This document shows, piece after piece, positions 14,889 to 36,493 of a stretch of DNA of 40,593 nucleotides. The notes beneath the pieces are model-generated. The model saw only the letters and a program-made list of their open reading frames with translations, was not told the DNA's origin and did not search any database. Positions within the stretch are counted from its first letter, which is position 1, and every line of letters starts with the position of its first letter. The position numbers and the translations under genes were made by a program. This stretch comes from Thermoplasmatales archaeon (GTDB lineage Archaea; Thermoplasmatota; E2; DHVEG-1), in contig CP070836.1 in the NCBI GenBank assembly GCA_020341795.1, positions 59,683-100,275 on the forward strand, read 5' to 3'.

Positions 14889-14999
14889 GTTTTAAGTCCC
14901 CTATATATACTTTATTATCTTCATTTTTATAAATCTATCTATAAATAAAGTAATGTTAATCTCTTTTAAGGAAAATATTATGAACCTTATTTAAAGAAT

Positions 15000-18232: not shown

Positions 18233-18603
18233 AGTTAAATTAGTATCAAATTATTTTAATTTATAAATTTTTCTATGGAAAAACACAAAAATAAAATAAT
18301 AAAGCTTTATTAAATTAAAACAATCACATAGAAAAAACCGTTTTTTAAACCTCTTTTCCTAATATAAAAAATAATTTCATATTTCATTATCATTTTTTTA
18401 ATATGTCTTCTATTGTTTCTTCATTTTCTGCAGAACCTAAAAAGTAGTCTGTAATTTTTATTTCCATAATAAATATAAATCTCTGAACTATATATTATCT
18501 GTTACTGAATTAAACCACCTAACACTGGGTTAATCATATATATAAAAATTTTTAAACATATTAAAAAACTGATATATGATTCAACAAATTGAGGATAAAT
18601 ATT
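18233..18603. other. Intergenic region with promoter of the HemK-type methyltransferase
   Basis: It contains a TATA box, TATATATAAAAA at about 18536-18547, and the GAGG Shine-Dalgarno at 18591-18594 of the following gene. A 25-codon minus-strand frame (18390-18467) is present but unsupported. Nothing else is seen. Confidence 0.45.
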
Positions 18604-19236
18604 TTGAATAAAAATAAGTTAGAAAAAACATTTAAATATAAAAGATTAACAATAAGTATTCATAAGGAGGTTTATGATCCTGCAGAAGATACATTCCTTC
18701 TTCTTGATTCCCTGATCATAAAACCGGGTGATAGAGTTTTTGAAATAGGAACTGGTTGTGGAATAATTGGTCTTTATTGTGCAACCATTGGGGCAGATGT
18801 TTTGTGTTGTGATATTAATCCATTCGCTGTTGAGCTTGTTAAGAAAAATTATCAACAAAATTTAAAGTTATTAAAAGGTAATTTTGAGGTTAGAATTGGT
18901 GATATATTTTCAGTATTAAACAAAGAGGATTTATTTGATATCATAGTTTTTAATCCACCATATCTACCAACAAGTTTTCAGGATTTGGTCGGTGGATCAG
19001 GTTGGTTTGATAAATCAGTTGATGGAGGAACTGATGGATTAAATACTACTAAAAGATTCATAGAATCGGTTAGTAATTATTTGAAAAAAGATGGTTGTGC
19101 ATATTTTATATTTAGTAGTCTTTCTGATAGAAAAAAACTTAATAAAATCATTAATCAAACTTATTTGAATAAAACTATTATTTCAAGTAAAAAATTCAAT
19201 GATGAACAACTAGATGTTTATTGTTTGAAAAAATAA
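18604..19236 (+). CDS. HemK/PrmC-type protein-glutamine N5-methyltransferase
   Basis: A 210-aa SAM-dependent methyltransferase of the archaeal/eukaryotic HemK2 (Mtq2) type that methylates the glutamine of the GGQ loop of release factor aRF1. It shows VYDPAEDTFLLLDSL, the SAM-binding motif VFEIGTGCGIIGLYCA, and the catalytic NPPYLP. GGTDGLNTTKRFIESVSNYLKKDG is also typical. The start chosen is the TTG at 18604, nine bases after GAGG; a TTG at 18589 is in frame but precedes the SD. The C-terminal strand order is complete. Confidence 0.88.
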   Translation: MNKNKLEKTFKYKRLTISIHKEVYDPAEDTFLLLDSLIIKPGDRVFEIGTGCGIIGLYCATIGADVLCCDINPFAVELVKKNYQQNLKLLKGNFEVRIGDIFSVLNKEDLFDIIVFNPPYLPTSFQDLVGGSGWFDKSVDGGTDGLNTTKRFIESVSNYLKKDGCAYFIFSSLSDRKKLNKIINQTYLNKTIISSKKFNDEQLDVYCLKK

Positions 19237-19251
19237 AGAAAAATAGGGAGT

Positions 19252-21408
19252 TTATTTATTGAATATTTTTTGAAATATCTGATATATCAATGGAAAATTT
19301 TCCCGTAGTCTTGAAAAAATTGGAAGGTTGATTGTTTTTGGCATTGCAATTCCCAATGGTTCGCTCCAATCACTCTGTACTCCATGTTCATCTTTAGCTT
19401 TTACTTTAATCTGATAATTACCTTGTTCAGTCCATGTATGGCTTGCACTTGCGGTTTGACCTGAGTTATATGGTCCTATCCAACCGGAAAATGTTTCGTC
19501 TCCCCAGTCAAATAGGTAATATATCTTGTCTCCATCAAAATCGGTTGTGGATGTTGTATATGTATAATCGTTGTTTATTCCACCATTTGTTTTACCATCT
19601 GGTCTATCTGGTTTTTCTGGTGGTGTAGATTCAGCAGCGATAGATAGTGTTGGATCACCAAATAGTGTCCATTCAACAACTGTTTTATATTCTCCTCCAT
19701 TGTTGATTCTGTGAGTGTTCATATAACTGTTTAATGCTCGTTCCCACATTTCTCCGACGGTTATCGAGCCATCCTTATAGGCTCTAAATGTTCCTATAGC
19801 CATACCCTCAACAAGCCCAGCTACTACAGATGTGCCAATATAAGCATAACCAAGGCCTGTTGCACCAAATGAGGCAATGCCACCTCCACCTTCATTTGCA
19901 AGCCATGCCCATGAAAATGTGTTTTCATCTTTTGAAAATTTGCTGACGCTACATGCACCAGTAATTACAATAGGTAATTCATCACCATTATTAAGTGATT
20001 TTATATCAGATGAAAAATATCCACCATTTGGACCAGGAAGCCATTTGTTATCATTTTTATGTGGATGTGTTGCCCAGACATTTGTATTTCCATGTCCTGA
20101 GAAATCAACAAATCCACAACCACTCTTAAGAACGTTGTTTAAATCCCCTTTGCTATTAAGTCTTCCAAGTGATGCCCATATTTTCTCAGGGATAAAACCA
20201 TCCATATAGTTTATCACTCTTTGATTTACATATTCTCCTTCAAGAACTCCATCTGAGTCGTATTGTTCATCTATAAATGAATCTCCTCCAACAACTACCA
20301 TGTCTGTAAACCAATCCTGAGTATATGCTTCGTTGTTTTCATATGTTATAATTTTATCAATAACAGTGTTAACTTCAGTACCGCTGTTTGCTGGGAGTCT
20401 TCCTAGTTTTACATCAGGTGATAGATCCATGAAATCATAATTGTTATTCCAGTCATATTCTGCAAATACATCATTGTCATTTGAGTCCCAGGTTACAAAC
20501 TCGTTCTGCTGAGTTTCCTCGTTATAATAATAAATATCTGCAAAATATAGGTCACTAACAAATATTTCACCGTCATTTCCAACTTGTATATGAGTATCAC
20601 GGGTTGGGAATTTATCTCTGTTACCAACAAGTAATACACTTTCAATGTTGTTTTCATCAATTGCGTCTTTTATGAATTTTTTAACTTTTTCTGCATCATC
20701 TCTACCAGATGCCATGCTTTTTATTTGACTGAGTGTAAAAATTTCAGTTACTATTCCCCGGTTGTTTTTATGTGATTTTAATGTCTGAAGTTCATCTGAA
20801 AACTCATCAGCTGTAAGTATAATGAAATCATATCCAACATTTGTTGTTTTTGGTTGATTGTTTAATTCATAATTTATACTGATTTCTACATTTTCTGACC
20901 ATGAAAATTTTTGTTCTTGCTGGTTGTAAGATGACATGTATGCTACGACGTTTACTATTATCTGTATTTCTCCATCTATTTGTCCTACTTTTATTGTATA
21001 ATCAAATTGTTGTTCTGGATATGTCCCTGCATAATTATACTGTTTTTCAACTGTTTTAGATAAAATCCCAACTGTTGCTTTCACAGGTGATGGTATTATA
21101 TCTTTTGAAAGCTGCATACTCTGTATATTATTAAAAGTGCAAGTAACACTTTTTATTTCTGTTCCAAGTGGATAAGCAAAAGTATGAATATACATAGGTA
21201 ATAATGGTTTACCCTCATTGATCATTAAGGAGTTCGTCTCTTCAAACGATACTTCAACATAGTCTTTATTTTCTTTCAAAACTGGTCGTGAAAATGCAAC
21301 ATTTATTGTTTCGGATTCAAAAACGTCTTTGCCAGGTGTAGCAACAGCTCCTAGTCCGCTTAGGACTAAACATCCTATTATAAAAAATATTAACACTTCT
21401 CTCAACAA
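19252..21408 (-). CDS. Secreted gingipain-like cysteine protease (C25) with PKD domain
   Basis: A 718-aa predicted extracellular protease. It has a signal peptide (1-22), a propeptide-like beta region (25-190), and a C25 catalytic domain of about 190-590 with the His of FSGHGN (His439) and Cys of TGACS (Cys486). FGDPTL ends the catalytic unit. A PKD domain follows at 596-690 (FDWGDETFSGW, HTWTEQGNYQIKVKAKDEHG). The final 30 residues are a basic, aromatic tail with FP. The start is TTG; a second TTG at 21405 lies seven bases after GGGGG and may be the true one. Gingipain and clostripain-type proteases are a known feature of MBG-D archaea. Likely role: breakdown of external proteins. Confidence 0.93.
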   Translation of the reverse strand: MLREVLIFFIIGCLVLSGLGAVATPGKDVFESETINVAFSRPVLKENKDYVEVSFEETNSLMINEGKPLLPMYIHTFAYPLGTEIKSVTCTFNNIQSMQLSKDIIPSPVKATVGILSKTVEKQYNYAGTYPEQQFDYTIKVGQIDGEIQIIVNVVAYMSSYNQQEQKFSWSENVEISINYELNNQPKTTNVGYDFIILTADEFSDELQTLKSHKNNRGIVTEIFTLSQIKSMASGRDDAEKVKKFIKDAIDENNIESVLLVGNRDKFPTRDTHIQVGNDGEIFVSDLYFADIYYYNEETQQNEFVTWDSNDNDVFAEYDWNNNYDFMDLSPDVKLGRLPANSGTEVNTVIDKIITYENNEAYTQDWFTDMVVVGGDSFIDEQYDSDGVLEGEYVNQRVINYMDGFIPEKIWASLGRLNSKGDLNNVLKSGCGFVDFSGHGNTNVWATHPHKNDNKWLPGPNGGYFSSDIKSLNNGDELPIVITGACSVSKFSKDENTFSWAWLANEGGGGIASFGATGLGYAYIGTSVVAGLVEGMAIGTFRAYKDGSITVGEMWERALNSYMNTHRINNGGEYKTVVEWTLFGDPTLSIAAESTPPEKPDRPDGKTNGGINNDYTYTTSTTDFDGDKIYYLFDWGDETFSGWIGPYNSGQTASASHTWTEQGNYQIKVKAKDEHGVQSDWSEPLGIAMPKTINLPIFSRLRENFPLIYQIFQKIFNK

Positions 21409-21500
21409 TTAACCCCCTAGAGTTAACATATGTTAATCTTAATATATAGCTTGTATTATTTATACTTTTCTAATAATCAATTTAATTATCAATTAAATAC

Positions 21501-21962
21501 TTAAAAAACATAGCTTCCATCAAAGACAATTCTTTTAATAAACTTCCAGACAGTTTCAATATCTGAATCAAGGAAAACAGCACCAATAAGTGCTTCAAGA
21601 GCATTTGCTAGATTAGTAAGATTTGTATCACCATCCTGCATTGTCTCACCTCTTCCAAGATATAAGTATTTACCTAGTCCAAGGTCTTTTGCTCTCTGTG
21701 CAAGATAGCTATTGTTTACTAATTGTGCACGCCTACGTGTAAGTTCACCCTCGGAAAAATATTTGTTACTTTTGTAAAGCTCTCGAGCAACAAGAAAACT
21801 CATAATACTATCACCTAGAAACTCAAGACGCTCATTAAATTCAATTGGTGTTTTTGCTTCAAAAGCATAAGTCTTATGTGTAAGGGCAGTTTTTAAAAGA
21901 TCCCTGTTTTTAAAAGTATATTTTATCTTTTTTTCTAGATTACGTAGCTCACTTTTCAGCAT
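21501..21962 (-). CDS. rnc: Minimal ribonuclease III (no dsRNA-binding domain)
   Basis: A 153-aa RNase III endonuclease domain: NRDLLKTALTHKTYAF, the signature ERLEFLGDSIMSFLVA with the catalytic Glu and Asp, and NALEALIGAVFLDSD carrying the second metal-binding Glu. The protein ends just after the catalytic domain, so the usual C-terminal dsRBD is missing, as in Mini-III enzymes. Starting at the ATG at 21962 removes 18 unrelated residues that would overlap the upstream papain-like gene, whose stop is only two bases away. RNase III is uncommon in archaea. Possible roles are rRNA maturation or double-stranded RNA cleavage. Confidence 0.88.
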   Translation of the reverse strand: MLKSELRNLEKKIKYTFKNRDLLKTALTHKTYAFEAKTPIEFNERLEFLGDSIMSFLVARELYKSNKYFSEGELTRRRAQLVNNSYLAQRAKDLGLGKYLYLGRGETMQDGDTNLTNLANALEALIGAVFLDSDIETVWKFIKRIVFDGSYVF

Positions 21963-21964
21963 AT

Positions 21965-22999
21965 TTACATACCTATTTTTATTATAGATAATAATAACTG
22001 GAAAACAGGAAACCATTGAATAAGATTTTGATTATTTAAAAACTGATTGTTTTTCAATCTTTTATTATAACCAGTAATATATGCACAAGATCCAGGTGAG
22101 CCAATACCACATTCACCATATTTAATCTTAAACCAGCCGTTCTCACCCCAATTAGTACCCCAACTATTTTTACATATCCAATAATCCTGATCATCGTTAT
22201 ATCCCACAATAGCGACAACATGTCCACCAGAGTAAATGTTTGAATTTCTTTCATAAACCCCTCCATCATACTCATAGAAATCATAATAAATATCAAACGC
22301 TGCAATGACTGGTCCATAGGTAACTATTGCATTTTTTATCGATTGATGGTTTGATAGACTATGATAATTATCTACTTTAATGATGTAGGATTCCCAGTCT
22401 TCACATTTTTCATTACATTCTACAGGGTCATTGCTAGGAATTCGCAAACCCTTACAGTCACCAGCATCTCTACCATTGGCATCTATTGCTTTGTAAGAAA
22501 AACATGCCTCAGTTATTGTACCAACATTTCTTACGAAATTTAAAGCATTGGGAAAAAAACCTCCACAGCAGTCCCCAACACTATAGCCATAATAAGAAGG
22601 ACAAGATACAATAAACTGCTCTGAAAGATCAATATCAATATTCGGATTATTATTTTGAATGTTATAAACTGTTTCAAGTGCTGCTACCAATCCAAAAGCC
22701 CAACAGCTTCCACATTGAGCTTGATCTCTAATTCGAGTTGTCCAATCGCCATATTTACCATTAAATGATGCTTTTCGCCAATCCCAATTATCAGGCGCAA
22801 AACCTGATAAAGAAATAGGATTTGGAATTAAATGACCATTCTCATCATATTTTTTTATAAGACCTGTTGCATATTCCCTGCTCTCCTGTTGATTGTTTAA
22901 TGTTACATCTTTGGAAATAAATTCAGATTCCACTGATCCAATAAATCCGATAAATATCAATAAAAACATCAATACTATTGAAATTAATTTTTTACTCAT
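21965..22999 (-). CDS. Secreted papain-like cysteine protease (C1A)
   Basis: A 344-aa predicted secreted peptidase. It has a signal peptide (1-22), a short pro-region without a full I29 inhibitor domain, and a papain domain from about 66 with the oxyanion Gln93, nucleophile Cys99 in CGSCWAF, His260 in GGHVVAIVGY and Asn278 in CKNSWGTNWGENGW. Several further Cys suggest disulfides, which fits an exported protein. ATG at 22999 is chosen because GAGGGG lies eight bases before it. The C-terminal 25 residues, beginning FLNNQN and containing WFP and a hydrophobic run, resemble the tail of the C25 protease. The stop is two bases from the RNase III start. Confidence 0.92.
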   Translation of the reverse strand: MSKKLISIVLMFLLIFIGFIGSVESEFISKDVTLNNQQESREYATGLIKKYDENGHLIPNPISLSGFAPDNWDWRKASFNGKYGDWTTRIRDQAQCGSCWAFGLVAALETVYNIQNNNPNIDIDLSEQFIVSCPSYYGYSVGDCCGGFFPNALNFVRNVGTITEACFSYKAIDANGRDAGDCKGLRIPSNDPVECNEKCEDWESYIIKVDNYHSLSNHQSIKNAIVTYGPVIAAFDIYYDFYEYDGGVYERNSNIYSGGHVVAIVGYNDDQDYWICKNSWGTNWGENGWFKIKYGECGIGSPGSCAYITGYNKRLKNNQFLNNQNLIQWFPVFQLLLSIIKIGM

Positions 23000-23045
23000 T
23001 ATTACTACCCCTCTAATATATGGGATATATGTATCATTAATAAAA

Positions 23046-24764
23046 TTATTCATTAATTGTAATAAATTTTAATGCTTTTTTACCTGCATCCTGTTCGTCA
23101 AACGATCCTAACAAATGTTTTTTATTTTTAAAAGGCCTACCAGCTAGAAGTCTAATTGCTCTTTTTTTACCAATACCTGGTACAGCCTCAAGAGTTTCCC
23201 GACTCGCTTCATTTACATATAAAGGATGTGGAATGGCTGTTATTGAGCGAAACCCATAATCAACAATTTTCACATCAATAAATTTATTAAGATCACTAAT
23301 CCCAGGAATTCCTATTAATAGAGGATAGCTTCCAAGTTGCCTACCAAAAATAGTTTTTCCATCTGCTTTTTCACAATAAACATCTTTTAAGATTGTTCCA
23401 ATAGGAAGAAGATTTTTAAGCATTGGACGTACTATATCTTCACTAACACGTTTTTTGAATCTTTTAAAATCAGCTTTATGTTTATTAACAAGTTTAATCC
23501 CAGTATCATACATTTTTGTACCAGGGATCGGGATAACCTGTCTAAGATTTATACGACGAAGAAGTAAACCTTTGTCTAGTATATCTTTTAAAAATTTATA
23601 ATTTAAATCAAAAGTTTTTTTAGATTCACCAATTAAACCAAACACAAAATTTAAACCTGGTAATAATTCAGACATTCCATTACTACCTCTCTTTGCACCT
23701 ACTTTGTTTATTAATCTGATTGCATCAAATATTTCTCCAGGACTTGCTTTTAAATTATTTTTATCGATAACATCAGGATCAGCACTTTCAACACCTAAAG
23801 CAGCAACATCACCAGGGGTATGATACTTAACTATTGTTTTAGCTATTTTTTCAGATTCTTTAGGATATTCTGCAATAACTCCTGGATTTGCATTATCGAT
23901 ATGAAGTATTTTGAGGTTTGGAGCTACTTGTCTAATACCTTTAAATAACTTTTCGATTGCATCTGGATTTGGCCTTGGTCGTTCTTTCTTACCTGCATCA
24001 ATGCTCATATATGAGAAAATACATGGTTGATTTCCAATTCTAAAGTGTTTAATTCCATTCTGATATAATGCTTTTACTTCCGAAATAATATCATCTATAT
24101 GTCTGAATTCCGGAAACCCTTTGCTTGGTTCAGAGCAAAATGAGCACCCACCAACAAGTGTTCGAGCGCAACCTCTATATGTTTCAATCTCTGTTATTAA
24201 ATAACTTGGGAAATATGGGTGTTGAGTTACGATTTTTGCACCAAGTATTGCATAATCTGATATTGAATGTGCATTTTCTCTATATAGGTCTGTTTTGATT
24301 TTATCATATGATAATTTATTTTTTAAAAACTCATAGATGATTATTTCCCCGTCACCTTTTGCTATTATATCAAATGAATCATTTAAAGAGGATATTTCTT
24401 TTGTTTTATGACCACCAGATATACCAAATCCATATCGCGCTGCAGGTCCAGATAGCATCTTAAAAGGATTGGGACAATTGTTTATTATCGAAAGGATTTC
24501 GTTTGGACTTGCTGGATATCCTGATAAATACTTACCAGGTACAGCCATACCAGCAATTACAATCAGTAAATCTGATTTATTTAAATCATAGATCAACTCT
24601 TTTTTATTTCGGATTTGATCAATTGTATAATAACAGACATTTGCTTTTTTATCAAAGCTATATACAGCACCTGCTAAATAGCGTGGATAAGGACTAATAT
24701 AGGGTGGGACACCTAGACATGTTGGTTCATCAATGTATCCATCTAGAATACTTACTTTTAACAT
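23046..24764 (-). CDS. Radical SAM protein with C-terminal helix-hairpin-helix (COG1031)
   Basis: A 572-aa archaeal radical SAM enzyme. It opens LDGYIDEPTCLGVPPYISPYPRY; residues 60-180 form a B12-binding-like region. The cluster motif is CARTLVGGCSFC, i.e. CX7CX2C, the wider spacing of the COG1031 family. The C-terminus (about 520-572) is a helix-hairpin-helix DNA/RNA-binding motif (LEAVPGIGKKRAIRLL). The substrate is unknown; the HhH suggests a nucleic acid. The start is an ATG. The upstream 120 bases hold divergent promoters shared with the KaiC-like gene. Confidence 0.88.
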   Translation of the reverse strand: MLKVSILDGYIDEPTCLGVPPYISPYPRYLAGAVYSFDKKANVCYYTIDQIRNKKELIYDLNKSDLLIVIAGMAVPGKYLSGYPASPNEILSIINNCPNPFKMLSGPAARYGFGISGGHKTKEISSLNDSFDIIAKGDGEIIIYEFLKNKLSYDKIKTDLYRENAHSISDYAILGAKIVTQHPYFPSYLITEIETYRGCARTLVGGCSFCSEPSKGFPEFRHIDDIISEVKALYQNGIKHFRIGNQPCIFSYMSIDAGKKERPRPNPDAIEKLFKGIRQVAPNLKILHIDNANPGVIAEYPKESEKIAKTIVKYHTPGDVAALGVESADPDVIDKNNLKASPGEIFDAIRLINKVGAKRGSNGMSELLPGLNFVFGLIGESKKTFDLNYKFLKDILDKGLLLRRINLRQVIPIPGTKMYDTGIKLVNKHKADFKRFKKRVSEDIVRPMLKNLLPIGTILKDVYCEKADGKTIFGRQLGSYPLLIGIPGISDLNKFIDVKIVDYGFRSITAIPHPLYVNEASRETLEAVPGIGKKRAIRLLAGRPFKNKKHLLGSFDEQDAGKKALKFITINE

Positions 24765-24883: not shown

Positions 24884-25648
24884 ATGATAGAAATTAATGA
24901 AGAAGTTAATTTTACTAAAATTACTAATTCTAATAGAATCAACACAGGTCTTGCAAGACTTGATGAGCTAATCTCCGGAGGTCTTCCAAAAAATAGTATT
25001 ACACTTATTTCTGGAACACCTGGTTCTGGTAAAACAATTCTGTGTTATCATTATCTTATGGAGGGTTTGAAAAATGGTGAAAACTGCTTATACCTTACTA
25101 GTGATGAACGTATTAATAATATCATAAAACAAGCAAATAACATTGGTTTTGATTTCCAACAATGGTTAAATAATAGTAAACTAAAACTTATGTATCTAGA
25201 CCTTGATAAAAGCACTATTCACAAAGAAATGGAGCAAGAAATAAAAACTGGAAACTATACACGAGTAGTCATTGACTCTCTAACGCCTATCACAGAAGTA
25301 CCTGTTTGGGTTAGTGGTATAAATGAAATAATGCCCTCTTCAGATTCGACAGAGACAAAGAAATATCCTGTAGGTTCGCTTTCCACAACACGTATGCATA
25401 TAAGAAGAATAATGAGTCTTTTAAACCATAAAAACTGCACAACCCTTATTACCTCAGAAATACCCGAAGGTGCAAAAAGCCTATCTCGTGATACAATTTC
25501 CGAATTTCTTGTCGATGGTATAATACTTATGGATATAGATGTTACAATGGATAGGCGAAAACTAACAGTTCGAAAGATGAGAGCGACAAAACATACATTG
25601 AAGCCTCAGAATATAACAATAACAGAAGGCGGAATAAAGTTTTTATAA
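24884..25648 (+). CDS. KaiC-like RecA-superfamily ATPase
   Basis: A 254-aa single-domain KaiC-type ATPase. It has the typical opening TGLARLDELISGGLPKNSITLISG, Walker A GTPGSGKT at 44-51, a Walker B-type strand VVIDSLTP near 128-135, and a C-terminal DGIILMDIDVTMDRRKLTVRKMRATKHTLKP segment typical of archaeal KaiC homologs. Such proteins act in signalling and regulation (for example near archaeal motility or gas-vesicle genes), not as clock proteins. The following gene encodes a roadblock-like partner 21 bases downstream, suggesting an ATPase-adaptor pair. Confidence 0.87.
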   Translation: MIEINEEVNFTKITNSNRINTGLARLDELISGGLPKNSITLISGTPGSGKTILCYHYLMEGLKNGENCLYLTSDERINNIIKQANNIGFDFQQWLNNSKLKLMYLDLDKSTIHKEMEQEIKTGNYTRVVIDSLTPITEVPVWVSGINEIMPSSDSTETKKYPVGSLSTTRMHIRRIMSLLNHKNCTTLITSEIPEGAKSLSRDTISEFLVDGIILMDIDVTMDRRKLTVRKMRATKHTLKPQNITITEGGIKFL

Positions 25649-25669: not shown

Positions 25670-26056
25670 TTGCAAGATGATCCAATTCTTGAGATATTAA
25701 ATAATCTCCTAAAACATGAGGAGATTCTAGCATGTATGGTAGCAAGACAAAATATGATAAGTGTAATGCCAGAACAGGATCGTTTTGATCCTGCAGTCAT
25801 GGAAATATGGGATGTAATAAAACGAGCTATGGATGATGTATTCGGTGTAATACGTGAATATTCACAAGCTGGCTTAGGTGAAATTGAGTTCAGATTACAA
25901 GATTATGCAGCATTGTTTTATATATTTCCTGATACAGAAAATGCATTGGTTACAATTGTACCTGCTTTATCAAATAAAGGATTAATTGAAGTCGAGCTAG
26001 AGAATGCAAGATTGGAAATTTTAAATTTAATGGAACAAAAGGAAATTAACCAATAA
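25670..26056 (+). CDS. Roadblock/LC7-like small protein
   Basis: A 128-aa protein whose core (about 20-120) resembles the Roadblock/LC7 (MglB-like) fold: an N-terminal helix, a strand ILACMVARQN, and later strands ALFYIFPD and ENALVTIVPALSNKGLIEVELENARLEI. The family call is tentative. The start is TTG, supported by GGAGTGA at 25657-25663, seven bases upstream. It is probably co-translated with the KaiC-like ATPase. Roadblock proteins act as dimeric regulators of GTPases or ATPases, so it may modulate its neighbour. Confidence 0.6.
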   Translation: MQDDPILEILNNLLKHEEILACMVARQNMISVMPEQDRFDPAVMEIWDVIKRAMDDVFGVIREYSQAGLGEIEFRLQDYAALFYIFPDTENALVTIVPALSNKGLIEVELENARLEILNLMEQKEINQ

Positions 26057-26168: not shown

Positions 26169-27476
26169 ATGCAATCTATAACAAAAAATTTAATTAATAA
26201 TTCTAATCTAGAAGCATCAATTGGCCATTCACGTAAATGGAATGCTAGAGATGCAGGAATAGAAGTTGCTAAAACAGCAATTAAAGGTTTAAATCAACCA
26301 CCAAGTTTTTTTATTGTCTTTTCAACGATTCATTATAAAAAAAATGGAGGATTTAAAAATTTTTTAGACGGTATTTGGGAGATATTACCAAAAGGTACTC
26401 CGCTAATTGGAGGAACAGTTGCTGGTTTTATAAATAATTATGGGAGTTATTCTAGAGGAGCTAGTGCATTGGCAGTTTCTTATCCAAATATTGATGTTGC
26501 AGTAGGTATTGGAAAACAAACAAAATTAAATCCAAAAAAGGCTGTAAAAACTTGTTCATATATGATTAAAAAAAGTCTCGAAAAATCCAAATTTAAAAAT
26601 CATTTCTTAATAAATGTAATATCAGGTCCAACTATTCCTTTTAGTAAATTTAATGTTATAAAATCAAAAATTGTTGGTAAATTAGCAGCTCATCTTGGAT
26701 ACAAATTGTTTTCTCTCTTTGGTGTAGGAGTTGGAAAGGAAGATGATATGATTGATTGGATGGTTAATTTATTGCCTGACTATTTTATTATTGGTGGCTC
26801 CACAATGGATTCTGGCCAAATGTTTCATAATTATCAATTTATTGATAATCAAGTCCATACAAATTCTATTGTTGCTTTAGGTTGTAGTACTGACCTTGAT
26901 ATATTTATAAAAAGTAGTCTAGGAGTGCACGATACTAATAAAACATTTGATATAACAAATATGGTCTCTAATGATAGGATTATAACAAAGATAAATAACA
27001 AACCTGCAAAAGAGGAATTTCTTAGTAAAATTGGGATAGTAGAAAAACAATTTGTTGAATTAGGGCCTTTTTATTATAAAACATCAAATTATTTTCCAAT
27101 TACTTTTGAAGAGAATAATAAATATACATCTGGTGTAGCAGGTTTTTTAGGAGATTATGTAGCTCTTGGATATAAAGCTCGAGGAAATAAAGTAAAATTA
27201 CTATCGATTACAGGTGAAGGAATTATTGATTTAATTGATGACATGTTTGAGGAGTATAATATAAATAAATATCCATTTATTTTCATTCCTTGCTCATTTA
27301 TTTTAGTAAATACACTTGGTTCTAGGACGAATCTAATTAGAAAGAAACTTGAGGAAAATATTGATAATATACCTTATTTAATGGTTTTAACAGTAAATGA
27401 AAATGCGGGTACACCTGAAGAACCAGCTTTAGCGAGAGTATACTCATTTAATATACTGTCAGTTGTTAATAAATAA
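26169..27476 (+). CDS. FIST-domain sensory protein
   Basis: A 435-aa FIST_N plus FIST_C protein without a fused output domain. FIST_N features are ASIGHSRKWNARDAGIEVAKTAIKG (about 17-41), LIGGTVAGFINNYG and ALAVSYPNIDVAVGIG; FIST_C covers the second half. FIST domains are proposed to bind small ligands, perhaps amino acids, and are usually attached to signalling modules. The terpene-synthase-like gene starts eight bases after its stop, so the two are one transcript. The start region reads ATGGGATGCA, a motif repeated at other starts nearby. Function in this locus is inferred to be sensing. Confidence 0.8.
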   Translation: MQSITKNLINNSNLEASIGHSRKWNARDAGIEVAKTAIKGLNQPPSFFIVFSTIHYKKNGGFKNFLDGIWEILPKGTPLIGGTVAGFINNYGSYSRGASALAVSYPNIDVAVGIGKQTKLNPKKAVKTCSYMIKKSLEKSKFKNHFLINVISGPTIPFSKFNVIKSKIVGKLAAHLGYKLFSLFGVGVGKEDDMIDWMVNLLPDYFIIGGSTMDSGQMFHNYQFIDNQVHTNSIVALGCSTDLDIFIKSSLGVHDTNKTFDITNMVSNDRIITKINNKPAKEEFLSKIGIVEKQFVELGPFYYKTSNYFPITFEENNKYTSGVAGFLGDYVALGYKARGNKVKLLSITGEGIIDLIDDMFEEYNINKYPFIFIPCSFILVNTLGSRTNLIRKKLEENIDNIPYLMVLTVNENAGTPEEPALARVYSFNILSVVNK

Positions 27477-27484: not shown

Positions 27485-28456
27485 ATGCATATGCCAAAAT
27501 ATAGCCTAGAAGATTCAATTCTTCTTTACAAATCAGTTGCTCCAAGAAATGCAGATTATCTTTTTCCATGGTTATATAGTGTTTATGATAATACATATCT
27601 TCCTTCAATAGATATTAATTTTAAGCATGTATTAAGCCTGGATAAGACTAAACTTACAATTTTTGATGTACTAGTTGACGATCTTGCAGATAATGCAAAA
27701 CTACGAGATAGGCGTCTATTAGAGGAGGCTATTAGGATTCCTTGGAATGGAAATAAAAAATCAAATGATCCTTATATAATTGTAACAAAAAAAATTTGGA
27801 TAGATTGTATAGAATCTATCAGAAATTATCCTCGTTTTGATGAGTTTAAAGATATTTTTTATTTTGACTTAGATCAGGTAATGAATTCAATGAGATATAG
27901 TTATTTAGTAAATACTTCTGATTTTTCTAGTATGATCGAGGATGAATTGTATCTAAACCATGGTGTTATGGTTATATTACACTGTGATATGGATTTAATG
28001 TGTTCCCCTAATTTTAATTTTGAAGAACTTAAAAAATTAAGGCCGATTCTACATTGGGTTCAAGATGTTGCCCATATTGGAAATCTTTTAAATACCTATC
28101 CAAAGGAAATTCAAGAAGCTGATTTTTCAAGTCCAATAATTTCATTAGGAGTGAGGGAAGGTTTAATTGATAAAAGTACAATTATAAACGATCCTGAATA
28201 TGCAAAAGCGAATCTTTTACCACTCGTTTCACGTTTTGAGCAAAAAATGATAGACAATCTTGAAAAAATTAAAAATAATGCTGTATCTATTAAAAGTATA
28301 AACCTAATAGATTTTTATAATAGATTAAAAGAAGTATGGGAAGCATTTTTAAATCGAGAACAGTATTGGGATTCAATTGATAAATATAAAGAGAAAGAAG
28401 AACTTTTTATATCTAAAAAAATTAATAATAATAAACTTAAATGGATTAGGATGTAA
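27485..28456 (+). CDS. Class I terpene synthase-like protein, paralog 1
   Basis: A 323-aa, probably all-helical protein. Asp-rich motif: FDVLVDDLADN with Asp65, Asp66, Asp69 (DDxxD). NSE-type motif: NLLNTYPKE with Asn200, Thr204, Glu208, matching the N-x3-S/T-x3-E metal-binding triad and the following Lys-Glu pair of terpene cyclases. The 135-residue gap, the overall length and REQY at 291-294, where cyclases carry the C-terminal Arg-Tyr pair, all fit the class I fold. The pyrophosphate-sensor Arg about 40-46 residues before the NSE is not present; YLNHG stands there. Expected substrates would be isoprenyl diphosphates, but activity is uncertain. It is cotranscribed with the FIST gene and roughly 60% identical by eye to the second paralog. 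ATG 27491 is an alternative start. Confidence 0.72.
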   Translation: MHMPKYSLEDSILLYKSVAPRNADYLFPWLYSVYDNTYLPSIDINFKHVLSLDKTKLTIFDVLVDDLADNAKLRDRRLLEEAIRIPWNGNKKSNDPYIIVTKKIWIDCIESIRNYPRFDEFKDIFYFDLDQVMNSMRYSYLVNTSDFSSMIEDELYLNHGVMVILHCDMDLMCSPNFNFEELKKLRPILHWVQDVAHIGNLLNTYPKEIQEADFSSPIISLGVREGLIDKSTIINDPEYAKANLLPLVSRFEQKMIDNLEKIKNNAVSIKSINLIDFYNRLKEVWEAFLNREQYWDSIDKYKEKEELFISKKINNNKLKWIRM

Positions 28457-28458
28457 AT

Positions 28459-29226
28459 TTAATATCGAGAACTTTTAATATTCTTGTCTATCTCTGTTTT
28501 TACTACCTCATAATAATCTTTATTTTTTAAAGGAGAATATATCCATATTCCATAACATATTATTATAATTCCAAATGTTAAAGCAGGTACTATAAGCTCT
28601 GGAAATCTTATATTTAAAATTGGAAATAACCATTCGGTATTTAGACCTATTATAATTGGGATACAAATACCAAAAATAATTATTCTTGTTTGTTTTTTCT
28701 TATTTATATTGTGCAATTTTGATAAGTAATCGAGTATTATATAAAAACAAAAAAGCGCAGTAAATGCAGCCCAAGTTGAAGGAATACTATGCATTATTGG
28801 GTTTGTAGGAATACCAAATGTCCATCCCCAGGATACAAGTACTGGTTTAGTTAATAAAAGATTTGTAGATATGTCAATAAAGAAAAATATTATTGCTGGT
28901 CCGTATATGATTAAATATGTTATTTTCTTCTTCAATAAATGATGATTTTCTGTATATAATAATGAAAAATGTAATAAAAAAGACATAACAAAATACCAAG
29001 CTACGTTTAGTTTTAGCCAGTAATAAGCTGTTGTAAAATCATTTGCACTACGATATCCAAACTCAATTAACGCCCAAAATAATGCTAAAGATATGCATAG
29101 TAATACAAAAATTTTACTTAGGTCATTATTAAAAATATATTTAACTTTTTTAAAATATATTGTTATACTTAATAAAATACATAAAATAAAAGAAATCATT
29201 GAGACTAGAGCAAATCCACTTATCAT
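28459..29226 (-). CDS. Orphan 7TM membrane protein resembling histidine-kinase sensor regions
   Basis: A 255-aa protein with seven to eight predicted transmembrane helices (for example residues 7-26, 38-56, 74-92, 105-125, 155-172, 182-200, 210-232). The pattern, with NVAWYFVMSFLLHFSLLYTE and ending in a cytoplasmic IYSPL segment, resembles the 7TM extracellular-ligand-sensing N-terminal module of archaeal and bacterial histidine kinases (HisKA_7TM type). No kinase or PAS domain follows; the protein stops 22 residues after the last helix. It may be a truncated receptor or a stand-alone membrane sensor. It converges with terpene-synthase-like gene 1, two bases apart. Confidence 0.6.
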   Translation of the reverse strand: MISGFALVSMISFILCILLSITIYFKKVKYIFNNDLSKIFVLLCISLALFWALIEFGYRSANDFTTAYYWLKLNVAWYFVMSFLLHFSLLYTENHHLLKKKITYLIIYGPAIIFFFIDISTNLLLTKPVLVSWGWTFGIPTNPIMHSIPSTWAAFTALFCFYIILDYLSKLHNINKKKQTRIIIFGICIPIIIGLNTEWLFPILNIRFPELIVPALTFGIIIICYGIWIYSPLKNKDYYEVVKTEIDKNIKSSRY

Positions 29227-29340
29227 TCTAGATGCATCCCATTATCATAAAACAAAAATCAGTTTTAATATTTTTTGTTTATGTAATAGATATCTATCTC
29301 CTATAAAATTATTTTTTCAAAATGTAATTCTGACACGATA

Positions 29341-29350
29341 ACTTTAAATA
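29341..29350 (+). promoter_or_regulatory. TATA box of the candidate small-peptide gene
   Basis: ACTTTAAATA is centred 26 bases before the ATG at 29372, the spacing expected for a leaderless archaeal transcript. A purine-rich ACGATA stretch just upstream could act as the TFB-recognition element. Confidence 0.5.
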
Positions 29351-29371
29351 CCAATCGAGACAGAATATAAC

Positions 29372-29500
29372 ATGTCAATATATGACAATATAAAGGATGG
29401 TGAGAAAAAAATGGAGAAAATAAAAATTGGGGCAACTGCTTTAGCAGTTTCAATTATTAGTATAGGAATAAATGGTATAAATCCTTTTCAATTTGTTTAA
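29372..29500 (+). CDS. Candidate 42-aa peptide with hydrophobic C-terminal half
   Basis: A 42-codon frame with a charged first half (DNIKDGEKKMEKIK) and a hydrophobic second half (ATALAVSIISIGI...) ending PFQFV. The first ATG sits 26 bases after a TATA box. A second ATG at 29411 follows GGTGAG by six bases and would give 29 aa. There is no Cys. It could be a single-helix membrane peptide, a peptide substrate for the RiPP-type radical SAM enzyme 1.1 kb downstream, or chance. No family is recognised. Confidence 0.4.
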   Translation: MSIYDNIKDGEKKMEKIKIGATALAVSIISIGINGINPFQFV

Positions 29501-29551
29501 ATTTTTAATCTTTTTTAAATATCCACTAATACCTCTATAATTTAATTTTTA

Positions 29552-30535
29552 TTATTCTTTAATATTTAATTCTGGAAGCCATCTTTCTCTATAATTTTCT
29601 TCTGTTATCCAAAAATTAAGTTTTTTAACTACATTTGGAAATTTTTTGTCTATATCAGAAAAAATTTTGTCTAATTCATTAACATTTTTTACAACAAATT
29701 CTGGTTCAAGATCACACCAACCAACTGAGACATTTAAATATTCAAAATAAGGCTTTTCTTTCAGAAAATTCCATATAGCCTTTCTTTTTTTATGTTCCTT
29801 GAGATATATATCAACTTTAAAATGTTGTAAATCGATTTTCGAGAGATCTATATTTACACGAAATGCTTGTATTACTTGCTCTTTTTGAAGGTTCTTAATC
29901 CTATAATTGACTGTTTGAGATGAACAATTAAGTTTTTCTGCAAGATCTATAAGAGGAATTCTTGCGTTTACAGCTATTTCATTTAAAAGACTATAATCGA
30001 TTTCATCAATTTCTAATGATTTTAAACCGCAGGTTAATCTATACATTTCTCTTTCTGATGTGTCAAGTTTATCTTTTAGTAAATATGATTTCTTATAGCA
30101 AAAAGCTTGAATGTAAACTGATACTATTGCTTTTGCAAAATAATCCTCGTATTTATCTAGAGTTTCTTCCCAAAATTGATAGAATTCTAAATTATTTTTT
30201 GTCCAGACTATCACAGTTAGATCAATTTCTCCCTTATGTGATTTAACTGTCCAAGTATTTTGATAATTCATAAAATGATTAATTATTTCATTCTTGGTAT
30301 CTTGACTTACATATTGAAATGTGATATATATCCTAAAAACATCATATCCTAATCTAAATGTGTTAATAGCTGTCCAAAAATTTTTTATGATTCCTTCATG
30401 CAGCATATTATTAATTCTGTAAGCAACAACATCTCTTCCTAGACCTACTTTTTTACCAATTTGACTGTTAGATTGTCTACAGTTTAAATCAAGTTCGTAT
30501 AGTATTTTCTTATCTTTTGAATCAATTTTGGACAT
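29552..30535 (-). CDS. Tandem Lrp/AsnC-family transcriptional regulator
   Basis: A 327-aa protein made of two Lrp/AsnC-like units. Each has a winged HTH: residues 1-60 (IDSKDKKILYELDLNCRQSNSQIGKKVGLGRDVVAYRINNM) and about 176-232 (IDEIDYSLLNEIAVNARIPLIDLAEKLNCSSQTVNYRIKNL). Each is followed by a ligand-domain-like beta-alpha region. Double-length members are known in archaea. It is divergently transcribed from the radical SAM gene, with 126 bases between the two starts, so it likely controls that gene and itself. No Shine-Dalgarno is seen; the transcript is probably leaderless. Confidence 0.83.
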   Translation of the reverse strand: MSKIDSKDKKILYELDLNCRQSNSQIGKKVGLGRDVVAYRINNMLHEGIIKNFWTAINTFRLGYDVFRIYITFQYVSQDTKNEIINHFMNYQNTWTVKSHKGEIDLTVIVWTKNNLEFYQFWEETLDKYEDYFAKAIVSVYIQAFCYKKSYLLKDKLDTSEREMYRLTCGLKSLEIDEIDYSLLNEIAVNARIPLIDLAEKLNCSSQTVNYRIKNLQKEQVIQAFRVNIDLSKIDLQHFKVDIYLKEHKKRKAIWNFLKEKPYFEYLNVSVGWCDLEPEFVVKNVNELDKIFSDIDKKFPNVVKKLNFWITEENYRERWLPELNIKE

Positions 30536-30561
30536 ATTATGAATTCCAACATATTATCTTT

Positions 30562-30575
30562 TTATTAATTAATAA
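30562..30575. promoter_or_regulatory. 14-bp AT palindrome in the divergent lrp-type/radical SAM promoter
   Basis: TTATTAATTAATAA is a perfect palindrome between the two divergent genes, 27 bases from the regulator's ATG. Lrp-type proteins often bind AT-rich palindromes, so it may be an operator. In DNA this AT-rich it could occur by chance. Confidence 0.25.
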
Positions 30576-30616
30576 TTTTTTTATTTTAATAATTAAACAT
30601 TAACTTACTATTATAA

Positions 30617-30629
30617 TAAATTATATAAG
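30617..30629 (+). promoter_or_regulatory. TATA box of the cobalamin radical SAM gene
   Basis: AAATTATATAAGC would place transcription start near 30650, upstream of the ATG at 30662 but downstream of the in-frame TTG at 30641, which decides the start codon. Confidence 0.55.
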
Positions 30630-30661
30630 CTAATTTCTTATTGAATAAATTGGATTTGAGG

Positions 30662-32563
30662 ATGCGTACTGATAGTAAAAACGTATTATTAATATCAATG
30701 CCATTTGCTGGAGTACATATTCCATCTATTCAACTTGAATTATTAGAACCTTATCTTTTAGAGCGTGAAATTAAAATTGAGACAAGGCATCTTTATCTTA
30801 GTGCTGCAGATATATATAAAAATAAAAATTATTTTTTTATGATTGAACCTCCAAATGATTCTTATACTGCACAGATAATTTATTCAAAATATGTTTATCC
30901 TGAACATTATAACCAATATAGAGATAAAATTAAAGAAAATCTTTATCAAAAAAGTGAAAATAGTAAAAAATTCAACTTTAATGAGTATGAAAAAAAAACA
31001 GATGTTTTTTATTCATGGATATTTAAAAATATAAATTTTTTAGATTTTGATTTAATTGGTTTTTCACTTAATTATGGACAATTACTACCATCCTTAGCTG
31101 TAGCGAAAAAAATCAAGGAACAATACCCTAAAAAGAAAATAATCTTTGGAGGTAGTAGAACTGTTGGTGAACTAGGAATAATAGCTCTTAAAACTCATCC
31201 TTATATAGATTATATTGTATCAGGTGATGGAGAAGAGCCATTATATCAACTAGCCTTAGAAAGTAAACTTGATACAATACCTGGTTTAATATATAGAAAA
31301 GAAAATAAAATATGCTTCAATCCAAGTCAATATATTGATATGAATACTTTACCTATACCGAATTACAATAGTTTCTATAGAGATCTGCTAAGAGCATCAT
31401 CTGATATACAACAATTTTTTTCTTATCAAGGACGAATACCAATTGAAATTTCTCGTGGATGTTGGTGGAATAAATGTACGTTCTGTAATCTAAATTTACA
31501 ACACAAAAAATATCGTGAAAAAAGTGTTGAAAAAATAATCGATGAATTGAATATTCTATCAGAGGAATATAGGAATTTATCATTCCAAATAATCGGTAAT
31601 ACTTTGCCAATAAGATCATATAGAAATCTTTGTAAAAGTATTATTAATCTTAAAAAAGATTTTAATTTCTTTGTTGAAACAAGAGCCGATCAACTTCGAA
31701 GTGAGGATTATTATCTGTTAAAACAAGCAGGATTTATAGATATTCAAACAGGAATAGAGTCTTTTAGTAAAAGCTATCTTAAAAAAATGAACAAGGGAGC
31801 TAGAGTAATTGACAATATTGCAGCACTCAAGTATTGTAAAGAAAACCAAATAAAAAATCATTATAATCTTATAATTAATTACCCAAATGAAGATAAAAAA
31901 GATTTTGAAGAATCCAAAAAAACAATACTAGCACTACAATCTTATCTTGACCCCCCCCAAATATGTCAATTAAGAGTAATGTATGGAAGCATTATTCATT
32001 GCAATCCAAATAATTATAATATTGAAAAACTTGAACCTACAACTATTGATACATTAATGTTTCCAAAAGAAATATTATCTAAAGGTTTTGTCTTTGTATT
32101 TGGATTTAAAAGAAAGCAAATTGAAAATAATGAAAACAACTGGGAAGAACTAATAAATAATTGGCAAAAACAAAAAGAAAAACAAGAATTAAAAAGAATT
32201 AAAGATCCAAGTATATTAAAAAAATTTGTTTTTTATTTTGAAGATGGAAAAAATTTTATAAAAATTTTTGATAATAGAAATTCTGAAAATATTAATATAT
32301 TTTTACTCAATGAAATAGAACGTAAAATTTTTCTTTCTTGTATAGATATTGCTTCTTATAACGAGTTAAAAATTCAATTCCCCAATTTATTTGAAGAAAA
32401 ACTTAAAAATATTTTACAGTCATTTGTTGAAAACGGAATTCTATTTGAGGAGGATGACTATTATTTAGCCTTACCAATTAGAACTAATGTTAATAAATAT
32501 TATAAAGAGGAATTTGAAAAAATATATGATAACAAGTTAGTTGAATGTTCACAATTTAAATAA
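30662..32563 (+). CDS. Cobalamin-type radical SAM enzyme, RiPP-maturation (rSAM_ocin_1-like) family
   Basis: A 633-aa enzyme with a B12-binding-type N-terminal domain (GFSLNYGQLLPSLAVAKKIK, IIFGGSR, DYIVSGDGEEPL), then a radical SAM core with RGCWWNKCTFCNLN (Cys267, Cys272, Cys275; CX4CX2C). The GCWW-CTFC-LN arrangement, the later LDPPQ...PNNYNI segment and a C-terminal winged-helix-like domain ending LFEEDDYYLALPI are features of RiPP maturation radical SAM protein 1 (TIGR03975-like) C-methyltransferases, though the Cys spacing is shorter than their usual CX7CX2C. It probably methylates unreactive carbons. Its substrate could be a peptide or a terpenoid made by the flanking gene products. 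A C8 tract lies at 31951-31958. Confidence 0.78.
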   Translation: MRTDSKNVLLISMPFAGVHIPSIQLELLEPYLLEREIKIETRHLYLSAADIYKNKNYFFMIEPPNDSYTAQIIYSKYVYPEHYNQYRDKIKENLYQKSENSKKFNFNEYEKKTDVFYSWIFKNINFLDFDLIGFSLNYGQLLPSLAVAKKIKEQYPKKKIIFGGSRTVGELGIIALKTHPYIDYIVSGDGEEPLYQLALESKLDTIPGLIYRKENKICFNPSQYIDMNTLPIPNYNSFYRDLLRASSDIQQFFSYQGRIPIEISRGCWWNKCTFCNLNLQHKKYREKSVEKIIDELNILSEEYRNLSFQIIGNTLPIRSYRNLCKSIINLKKDFNFFVETRADQLRSEDYYLLKQAGFIDIQTGIESFSKSYLKKMNKGARVIDNIAALKYCKENQIKNHYNLIINYPNEDKKDFEESKKTILALQSYLDPPQICQLRVMYGSIIHCNPNNYNIEKLEPTTIDTLMFPKEILSKGFVFVFGFKRKQIENNENNWEELINNWQKQKEKQELKRIKDPSILKKFVFYFEDGKNFIKIFDNRNSENINIFLLNEIERKIFLSCIDIASYNELKIQFPNLFEEKLKNILQSFVENGILFEEDDYYLALPIRTNVNKYYKEEFEKIYDNKLVECSQFK

Positions 32564-32591
32564 TTATTATTTTACTAATTATTTTTTAATT

Positions 32592-32645
32592 TCCTACAAA
32601 AATAAACATAACTATCCGATTTTGGAATATTGTAGGATTTTTCTC
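32592..32645 (+). terminator. Inverted repeat and T-run between radical SAM gene and terpene-synthase-like gene 2
   Basis: TCCTACAA (32592-32599) and TTGTAGGA (32630-32637) can pair into an 8-bp stem with a 30-base loop, followed by TTTTTCTC. It may end the radical SAM transcript or act as an operator for the next gene. Archaeal termination depends mainly on T-runs, so the stem may be incidental. Confidence 0.3.
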
Positions 32646-32695
32646 TATTAGGGCTTTAAGTTAGTTTTTAAAATATTAGAATTGGGGAAAATAAA

Positions 32696-33655
32696 ATGGA
32701 AGAAGAAAAAACCCTTAGTTTGAAGGAAGCAATCGAACTCTATAAGAAAGTAGGCCCAAGAAATGCTGACTTCTTATTCAAATGGCTTTACAAAGTATAT
32801 GAGAAAACATATCTTCCTTCCATTGATAATAATTACATAGAACAACTTGCATTAATCAAAACAAAACTCTGTATTTTTGATGTCCTAGTAGATGATTTAG
32901 CAGATAATGCCAAACTTCGAAATAAAAGACTTCTTGATCAGGCAATTCGAATCCCAAATAATGGAGCAAAACCTTATAAAAACTTATACCTAGAAGTTAC
33001 ACGATTAATTTGGCAAGATTGTTTAAACTCAATAAAAAACCTTCCAAGATATGAGGAATTTGAAGATATCTTCTTCTTTGACATAGAACAAGTATTGAAC
33101 TCAATGAAATACAGTTACCTAATAAACACATATGATTTTTCAAATTTTAAAGAGGATGAAATGTATCTAAACCATGGTGTAATGGTTATGCTACACTGTG
33201 ATCTTGACCTAATGTGTTCACCAGATTTTAACTATGAGGAATTAGGTAAACTTCGACCAATACTACATAGTGTTCAAGATGTAGCACATCTTGGGAATAT
33301 GATGAATACATACCCAAAAGAAATATCAGAAGCTGATTTCTCAAGCCCAATAATATCGATGGGTATAAGAGAAGGACTAATAGACAAACAATCAGTAATA
33401 AGAGATCCAGAAAATGCTATATCAAATTTAAAACCGCTTCTAGCTAGATTTGAAGAAAGAATGAAGAATAACCTTGAAAAAATACAGGCTAGCGCTCATT
33501 ACATTGAAAGTATTGATATCTATGAATTTTACTTAAAACTAAGAAATGTATGGGAACAGTTCCTACAAAGGGAGCAATACTGGGATTCAAATAAAGAAAC
33601 AATCCAGGATTCACCTTTCCAAATAATTTCAGAAAGAACTATTAAACTAGGTTAA
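32696..33655 (+). CDS. Class I terpene synthase-like protein, paralog 2
   Basis: A 319-aa paralog of the gene at 27485. Asp66, Asp67, Asp70 form DDLAD; Asn201, Thr205, Glu209 form the NSE-type motif (NMMNTYPKE); REQY is at 292-295. The same YLNHG segment replaces the pyrophosphate-sensor region. Conservation between the two paralogs is concentrated around the metal motifs, in YLNHGVMV, and in LHCD-DLMCSP-F, which suggests these segments are functional. GGGG lies about eight bases before the ATG. It has its own upstream region of 130 bases, so it may be transcribed separately from the radical SAM gene. Substrate and product are unknown. Confidence 0.72.
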   Translation: MEEEKTLSLKEAIELYKKVGPRNADFLFKWLYKVYEKTYLPSIDNNYIEQLALIKTKLCIFDVLVDDLADNAKLRNKRLLDQAIRIPNNGAKPYKNLYLEVTRLIWQDCLNSIKNLPRYEEFEDIFFFDIEQVLNSMKYSYLINTYDFSNFKEDEMYLNHGVMVMLHCDLDLMCSPDFNYEELGKLRPILHSVQDVAHLGNMMNTYPKEISEADFSSPIISMGIREGLIDKQSVIRDPENAISNLKPLLARFEERMKNNLEKIQASAHYIESIDIYEFYLKLRNVWEQFLQREQYWDSNKETIQDSPFQIISERTIKLG

Positions 33656-34724: not shown

Positions 34725-36419
34725 TTATATAAGTTGTTTTTTTGGTCTGAAGTCAAAATTTATCCAGTTTATATCAAAGTTTGTAATAGTTCCTTTAATA
34801 GGTCTTGGAAATATTTTATTCCAGTCATCCCATGTGTTTCTATTCCAGTTTGTCATATAAGATTCTTTAAATGTTGCTTGCACTCTATTATCAATGAAAA
34901 TATTATCATTTATCTTATTTTTATTCGAGTGATCAAGTTTGATTCCAATATTATTATCTTCGATAAGATTATTTTTAATGATGCTTTCTCTTGAGGATGC
35001 ATGAAAATGAAGGCCAATTCCACTATTGTCAAATATAATGTTGTCTTTGCATGTTCCATACATGCTTGCTTCAAAGTTTATTCCATCCTCTGAATTTTTA
35101 AAAATTGTGTTGTTTTCTATTAAATAATTATTTGACCATAAAAGATACATGCCTTCACGGTTATTTTTAATAATATTGTCTTTTACAATGTTAAAAGAAT
35201 CTTCATATGCATAATTTAGAAGAATTCCAATGTCACAGTTTTGTATAATATTGTTTTGAATTGTTATCTCAGAGTTTAGTGATAGCGTGCTGATTCCTGA
35301 GTCAAAAAGATCAGGTCCACTGTTTTGAATGGTAAAGCCACTAACACGTACTCCTGGGGCTTTGACATATATCACATTACCTGTACTTGTCCCATTTATT
35401 ATAGTTGTTGTTTTATCTTCCCCATCTATGTTTATTGTTTTATTTATTACTATGTCTCCATGATATGTTCCGTTTTTTACGTATACTGTCCATCCCTCAT
35501 ATGCAGCGTTCATTCCTTCATTTATAGTTTTATAGGGGTGCTCTTTTGAGCCATCCCATGGTCCTTCAATATTTTTATTATCAACATATACAATTGGGAA
35601 ATTTCCATAAACTCCTCCAAAATAGACTGGCATTTCTTCAATACTACATTCTCCATATGCTATTCTGAACCATCCGTTTTCACCCCATTTCTTACCCCAG
35701 CTATTTTTAATTATCCAATAACCGCCAGAGAATATAGATGGATCATCAACATATCCCATAATACATACTAGATGTATTGCAAATGCTTTACCCCAAATAT
35801 GTCGATAGATTCCTTTTTTGTATTCTCTAAAATCTTCATAAATTTGGAAATAAACTGGTACTGGTCCATTGTTAACTAATGCGTGTTTAATTGCATTAAT
35901 GTCACCAGCAGGTAAATAACTCCAATTTGTAACCTTCACGGTACGGTCCATCCAACAATCACAAGTTGTATTTTTAGGCCATAATTTATATTCTTTTGGA
36001 TAAGGCCAGCAGGCTTCATCTGGTATACCATATTCTACCAAATAGTTAGTATCGTTTTCTGGAAAAGATCCCCAGTCAAGATTTCCACCAGACCAGAAAT
36101 AAAGATGAGCTTCAGATAGGTCACAACCGAAGGGATATCCTACTTCTTTCTGAACCATGACTTCTACTGCTGCTGTGAATGCAAAAGTCTCACAGCTGTG
36201 AAAAGGTGATTGACTTCTTACAGGTGTTACAAAATTCACTCCATCGATATCTGTCCAACTGAATGAATCTGGAAGGGAGTTTACATCATAATCTATATAA
36301 ATTATATTTGATGATTTTTGATTGATTTTTTCGTTTTCTATATTATTACCAATTGTAATATGTAAATTTGAAACAATTAAAATCAATAGTGTGCAAATTA
36401 TGATAAATTTATTAATCAT
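34725..36419 (-). CDS. Secreted papain-like protease fused to a parallel beta-helix domain
   Basis: A 564-aa predicted extracellular protein. It has a signal peptide (1-22) and a C1 papain-type domain of about 50-270 with Gln70, Cys76, His216 (AIHLVCIMGY) and Asn239 (IIKNSWGKKWGENGWFRI). The Cys context is HSCETFAF instead of CGSCWAF, but the Gln-to-Cys spacing is normal, so activity is plausible. Residues 285-560 form NosD-like beta-helix repeats (many IxNNxI units), often sugar- or surface-binding. The ATG at 36419 has AAGGGG eight bases before it; a longer frame to 36455 lacks support. It is likely a surface protease binding polysaccharide or cell debris. Confidence 0.86.
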   Translation of the reverse strand: MINKFIIICTLLILIVSNLHITIGNNIENEKINQKSSNIIYIDYDVNSLPDSFSWTDIDGVNFVTPVRSQSPFHSCETFAFTAAVEVMVQKEVGYPFGCDLSEAHLYFWSGGNLDWGSFPENDTNYLVEYGIPDEACWPYPKEYKLWPKNTTCDCWMDRTVKVTNWSYLPAGDINAIKHALVNNGPVPVYFQIYEDFREYKKGIYRHIWGKAFAIHLVCIMGYVDDPSIFSGGYWIIKNSWGKKWGENGWFRIAYGECSIEEMPVYFGGVYGNFPIVYVDNKNIEGPWDGSKEHPYKTINEGMNAAYEGWTVYVKNGTYHGDIVINKTINIDGEDKTTTIINGTSTGNVIYVKAPGVRVSGFTIQNSGPDLFDSGISTLSLNSEITIQNNIIQNCDIGILLNYAYEDSFNIVKDNIIKNNREGMYLLWSNNYLIENNTIFKNSEDGINFEASMYGTCKDNIIFDNSGIGLHFHASSRESIIKNNLIEDNNIGIKLDHSNKNKINDNIFIDNRVQATFKESYMTNWNRNTWDDWNKIFPRPIKGTITNFDINWINFDFRPKKQLI

Positions 36420-36493
36420 CTTTATTCCCCTTAAATAATTATTATTAACCAACAAATAGTATTTAAATATTTTTGATTAAATAAAATAAATTA

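Follow-up and report, generated by a model that had tools for sequence, protein, structure and literature searches.

Terpenes serve plants and soil bacteria as fragrance and resin molecules, and the synthases that make them have been described in plants, fungi and bacteria. To our knowledge terpene chemistry is hardly described in archaea, and the open-access full-text literature holds no description of an archaeal terpene synthase, which is weak evidence confined to that open-access scope. What, then, is encoded by two neighbouring paralogous genes of a Thermoplasmatales archaeon from sediment that carry the metal-binding motifs of class I terpene synthases? Both genes, here called TS-A and TS-B, lie in the window, the whole 40,593-nt stretch of DNA that was analysed, within a single-contig genome of 1.79 Mb. 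Their open reading frames confirm the positions, sizes and motif places given in an earlier note on this DNA (Table 1), with 135 residues between DDLAD and the N of NxxxTxxxE in both proteins and REQY starting at residue 291 in TS-A and 292 in TS-B. Among the 35 window frames of at least 150 aa, only these two combine DDxx[DE] with an N...[ST]...E motif 100-170 residues further on, a pairing that arises in about 0.5% of shuffles of each protein. The paralogues share 67% identity over 291 residues without gaps, and their dN of 0.27 against a dS of about 2.9, close to saturation, fits purifying selection on both copies. In the tree they are sisters (97/96) within a single archaeal clade (100/100).

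Table 1. Coordinates, strand and characteristics of the two terpene-synthase-like (TS) genes and their neighbours in the window
Feature	Position	Strand	Remarks
KaiC-type ATPase	24884..25648	+	PF06745, E 1.6e-47; homologues precede TS by two genes (families f45 and f53)
Roadblock/LC7-like small protein	25670..26056	+	Judged by eye, no Pfam match; 70% identity in G021 and G024
FIST-domain sensor-like protein	26169..27476	+	PF08495, E 1.1e-17; ends 8 bp before TS-A
TS-A	27485..28456	+	Class I terpene-synthase-like, 323 aa; DDLAD at 65, NLLNTYPKE at 200
Membrane protein, 255 aa	28459..29226	-	Homologous to HisKA_7TM domain of the 7TM-DUF835 proteins preceding TS in f45/f53
Double Lrp/AsnC-type regulator	29552..30535	-	Accompanies radical SAM gene in TS-less relatives
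B12-binding radical SAM enzyme	30641..32563	+	TIGR03975, 347.7 bits (cut-off 281.85)
TS-B	32696..33655	+	Class I terpene-synthase-like, 319 aa; DDLAD at 66, NMMNTYPKE at 201
Conserved protein, 322 aa	33668..34636	-	Convergent with TS-B; N-terminus winged-helix-like by eye

The immediate surroundings of TS-A are shared with relatives from the same taxonomic family. In genomes G021 and G024 the TS gene again directly follows FIST, with a 2-bp gap or a small overlap, and is itself interrupted by contig ends or N-runs. An apparent in-frame fusion of TS to a thiolase-like protein in G021 was discarded as a scaffolding gap, an N-run having joined unrelated frames; the N-runs of this single-contig assembly lie at about 3400-3600 and 8200-8350 of locus L009 and at about 13700-13800 of L010. 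The conserved protein downstream of TS-B is 48-50% identical to its counterparts at L010 and L012, and a 320-aa homologue flanks the other end of the G024 TS fragment. The membrane protein encoded after TS-A matches 7TM-DUF835 proteins in BLAST searches (E 1e-12 and 2e-9), and the HisKA_7TM domain is recognized in the L030 protein at E 8.8e-21. Two polyprenyl synthases are encoded in the genome, one of them about 0.6 kb before the start of the window. Promoter scans, being of the bacterial type, are uninformative for an archaeon. The window also holds a peptidase cluster (13581-23053 and 34725-36455) with two M28-like, one gingipain (C25)-like and two papain-like members, assigned by eye, which would fit the protein-degrading MBG-D/Thermoprofundales lineage (cf. 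PMC6461988, PMC6752024).

Used as direct queries, TS-A and TS-B match nothing in Pfam, NCBIfam or PDB, nor anything in viral contigs or in a first scan of genome contigs, and the PF19086 profile finds no match in their own genome. Over the phylum the same profile yields weak matches only, all of them to one archaeal TS family, which whole-genome searches locate in 9 of 390 Thermoplasmatota genomes, this one counted, and a further search in 10/10 genomes of two other families, as a single copy each. Members annotated "hypothetical protein" are also found on six haloarchaeal plasmids, so that one clade covers Thermoplasmatota (all ten genomes of the two families, scattered elsewhere) and haloarchaeal plasmids alike. 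With PF03936 and PF19086, the profiles proposed for a check in the earlier note, TS-A and TS-B themselves give no match; four relatives narrowly pass the PF19086 (Terpene_syn_C_2) cut-off of 23.7 bits (L030 24.8, L043 25.1, L044 24.4, L057 24.5), and some also match PF03936. An earlier alignment of eight sequences was too divergent for pattern scans. In the alignment of 15 archaeal sequences, the metal-binding residues D66, D67, N201, T205 and E209 are invariant, as are L40, K55, P117, D129, D171, F178, Q194 and E212; since the homologues, paralogue TS-A excepted, are only 20-43% identical to TS-B, such invariance argues against motifs arisen by chance. Compared with 12 canonical terpene synthases taken from plasmids, the family aligns in hhalign across 220 columns (E 2.7e-4, probability only 42%), with DD placed on DD and N-T-E on N-S-E; the E-values of the controls are 0.35 for polyprenyl synthases and 0.92 for an unrelated neighbour family. 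(The pentalenene synthase query was checked against PDB 1ps1.) The tree sets the archaeal family as one clade opposite the canonical synthases (100/100), its long branches giving limited information on the depth of the split. The clade is far from canonical bacterial synthases, deeply split and previously unnamed.

Structure prediction points the same way. Two AlphaFold models, one per protein and both built from a 3-sequence alignment, are of medium confidence (pLDDT 69.6 and 70.3, pTM 0.71 and 0.63). Both are all-helical; the Asp-rich motif sits where helix 45-70 ends, and the N-T-E motif where helix 180-205 ends and immediately beyond, a placement on the helices like that of class I enzymes. 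Per model, the 50 Foldseek matches listed belong to terpene synthases or trans-prenyltransferases (probability 0.98-1.00), and the probability is 1.00 for the ent-kaurene synthase BjKS, a Streptomyces diterpene synthase and others, at TM-scores near 0.5 and modest best E-values of 7e-4 and 1.4e-3. The all-helical class I fold anticipated in the earlier note is therefore borne out at the level of models, which match isoprenoid-synthase structures.

The likeness stops short of the residues that handle the diphosphate. In the 12 canonical synthases the pyrophosphate-sensor R173, which precedes the NSE triad by about 46 residues, is invariant, and the R309-Y310 pair is nearly so. In the 15-sequence archaeal alignment Arg is not conserved at the corresponding sensor position, where hhalign puts Glu155, with conserved E153 and Y157 nearby, the latter nearly invariant in the family; the C-terminal RY pair is likewise absent from this alignment. 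REQY, previously read as the Arg-Tyr pair, had to be given up as its equivalent, because the canonical pair is an adjacent RY and the motif here is an R-x-x-Y confined to the closest relatives (TS-A, TS-B, RDSYW in L027 and RPKYW in the G024 fragment) rather than family-wide.

Loci of the same order in which no TS gene stands beside FIST show what else can occupy that place. All 13 conserve the roadblock-FIST pair, with KaiC in some, and 11 of the 13 carry a geranylgeranyl-reductase-family gene in a mostly convergent cassette after FIST (L081 reaches 169 bits, the TIGR02032 cut-off being 158.8; some of the other assignments were made by BLAST only or score below the cut-off). Acyl-ACP-reductase-like genes occur as an alternative, and most loci then continue with a radical SAM gene and an Lrp regulator. 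The presence of geranylgeranyl-reductase or other lipid-modifying genes at these TS-less loci suggests that TS fills a slot for an isoprenoid- or lipid-modifying enzyme. Two cassette types can be described. At L081, L106, L084, L112, L110 and L085, KaiC, roadblock and FIST adjoin a geranylgeranyl reductase, a TIGR03975 radical SAM gene and a 200-aa membrane protein with the motif GAGxKYIDDAFD; at L107, L108, L109, L111 and L113, a geranylgeranyl-reductase-like FAD enzyme accompanies an acyl-ACP-reductase/PigE-like protein (TIGR04058, 69.5 bits at L108) and one or two mutually paralogous proteins of about 415 aa that match neither Pfam nor NCBIfam.

Retention of two TS copies had been taken as a sign of a dedicated pathway, and this suggestion is not upheld by the intervening radical SAM gene, which 29/52 genomes of the order possess, most of them TS-less, and which searches did not find in any of the other four TS genomes. 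Being common without TS and not found with it elsewhere, the gene is not a marker of a terpene pathway, and a scheme combining terpene formation with C-methylation by the B12 radical SAM enzyme was rejected for the same reason. The enzyme of the window exceeds the cut-off of TIGR03975, a family of RiPP C-methyltransferases, and a search of the short ORFs beside its gene gave no convincing RiPP precursor.

These data support, with a probability of roughly 0.66, a reading where TS-A and TS-B, paralogues within an archaeal clade of the class I terpene-synthase fold, act as divergent Mg2+-dependent isoprenyl-diphosphate lyases or cyclases, probably using GGPP. It builds on the all-helical fold, the two metal-binding motifs, the single clade, purifying selection and linkage to sensor and isoprenoid-slot genes. 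Metal binding is a well-supported prediction, catalysis is probable as judged from sequence, and cyclisation is putative, though plausible. The earlier claim of divergent archaeal terpene-cyclase-fold enzymes accordingly holds for the class I-type fold and for both metal motifs, whereas cyclisation and activity are what we infer. Mechanistically, the Asp-rich and N-x3-T-x3-E motifs would hold three Mg2+ ions and engage the diphosphate group of an isoprenyl substrate. This is most likely C20 GGPP, which archaea produce for their lipids; the genome encodes two polyprenyl synthases. The diphosphate would then be ionised and a cyclic or linear terpene or alcohol released; since neither the sensor Arg nor the RY pair is present, other residues have to provide the closure over the diphosphate, and invariant K55, conserved E153 and nearly invariant Y157 are candidates. 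Product formation would probably be controlled by the adjacent sensory genes, FIST, roadblock and KaiC here and 7TM-DUF835, Bat/HalOD1 or PAS kinases in other lineages.

The same fold and metal chemistry could, however, serve something other than a cyclase, namely a linear isoprenyl alcohol or hydrocarbon synthase, a diphosphatase, or a prenyltransferase with a lipid, a protein or a small molecule as acceptor of the isoprenyl group. The lost sensor Arg and RY pair hint that the diphosphate is controlled differently, TS shares its slot with geranylgeranyl-reductase-family genes, and the best Foldseek matches of the TS-A model are mostly prenyltransferases; yet the second motif is the NxxxTxxxE typical of cyclases rather than a second DDxxD, and profile comparison favours terpene over polyprenyl synthases, so that we regard this alternative as unlikely, if worth serious attention.

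Beyond the taxonomic family of the window, archaeal TS genes repeatedly adjoin sensor or regulator genes. In f45 and f53 every contig that extends far enough has the order KaiC, 7TM-DUF835 sensor, TS, and neighbours on 5/6 haloarchaeal plasmids are FilR1-type HTH plus HalOD1 proteins, Bat-type regulators or PAS kinases; a PAS kinase adjoins TS in G027. Haloarchaea are rich in HalOD1-, Bat- and PAS-type regulators, and the haloarchaeal part of the association may be background. Within f53, four tandem Ras-like GTPase genes lie by the KaiC-7TM/DUF835-TS genes (L030:4107-6938, L043:13169-15740, L044:3458-6164, L045:4022-6478). An ancient archaea-specific TS branch embedded in sensory systems, where it would make or read an isoprenoid signal that serves KaiC/7TM-DUF835, FIST and Bat/PAS modules, is a doubtful extension of these observations. 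Recurrence of such neighbours in several lineages (KaiC, 7TM-DUF835, FIST/roadblock, HTH/HalOD1, Bat, PAS kinases) could even indicate that a terpene synthase has evolved into a sensor or switch, which would bind or slowly hydrolyse an isoprenyl diphosphate and report isoprenoid status to them; we consider this improbable, as the metal ligands are all invariant, as an enzyme should have them, no fusion of TS to a signalling domain was seen, and part of the association may reflect the regulator-rich haloarchaeal background. That TS-A and TS-B, which lack a direct family match, are unrelated all-helical proteins with chance motifs is very hard to reconcile with the invariance of the motif residues, with relatives that pass the Pfam cut-off, and with the in-register profile alignment and the fold matches.

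If the enzymatic reading of TS-A and TS-B is true, a clade of Thermoplasmatota and haloarchaea would extend terpene chemistry into archaea and give genome miners a profile that is now missing; its retention of metal ligands and loss of diphosphate-closing residues would put to the test which residues are indispensable in a class I synthase. A role in sensory modules, if true, would newly link terpene-synthase chemistry to archaeal signal transduction. As the haloarchaeal members, among them WP_158059334.1 and WP_103992445.1, belong to cultured organisms, function is directly testable.

Among known systems, trans-prenyltransferases (PF00348, polyprenyl_synt) resemble the archaeal family in overall helical fold, as seen with Foldseek, and in the first Asp-rich motif, but they have a second DDxxD where the archaeal proteins have N-x3-T-x3-E, and the profile E-value is 0.35. 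Bacterial class I synthases (PF19086; pentalenene and selinadiene synthases, BjKS) are closer, sharing a size of about 320 aa, the all-helical isoprenoid-synthase fold, an Asp-rich motif near 65-80 followed by N-x3-S/T-x3-E about 135-140 residues later, and marginal but significant profile similarity. The archaeal family differs from them as a separate clade on a long stem, without sensor Arg or RY pair, and its genes neighbour sensors, regulators and isoprenoid-reductase slots rather than P450s, no tailoring enzyme such as a P450 having been seen. Canonical-type synthases do occur on haloarchaeal plasmids, of Actinarchaeum halophilum and Halocatena marina (L064:5494-6885 and L065:5467-6906, annotated as hypothetical or SRPBCC proteins and each adjoining polyprenyl synthetase genes). 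These share archaeal hosts, fold and motifs with the family described here; they differ in keeping the RY pair and in grouping with bacterial synthases in the tree and, unlike the archaeal family, were probably transferred from bacteria.
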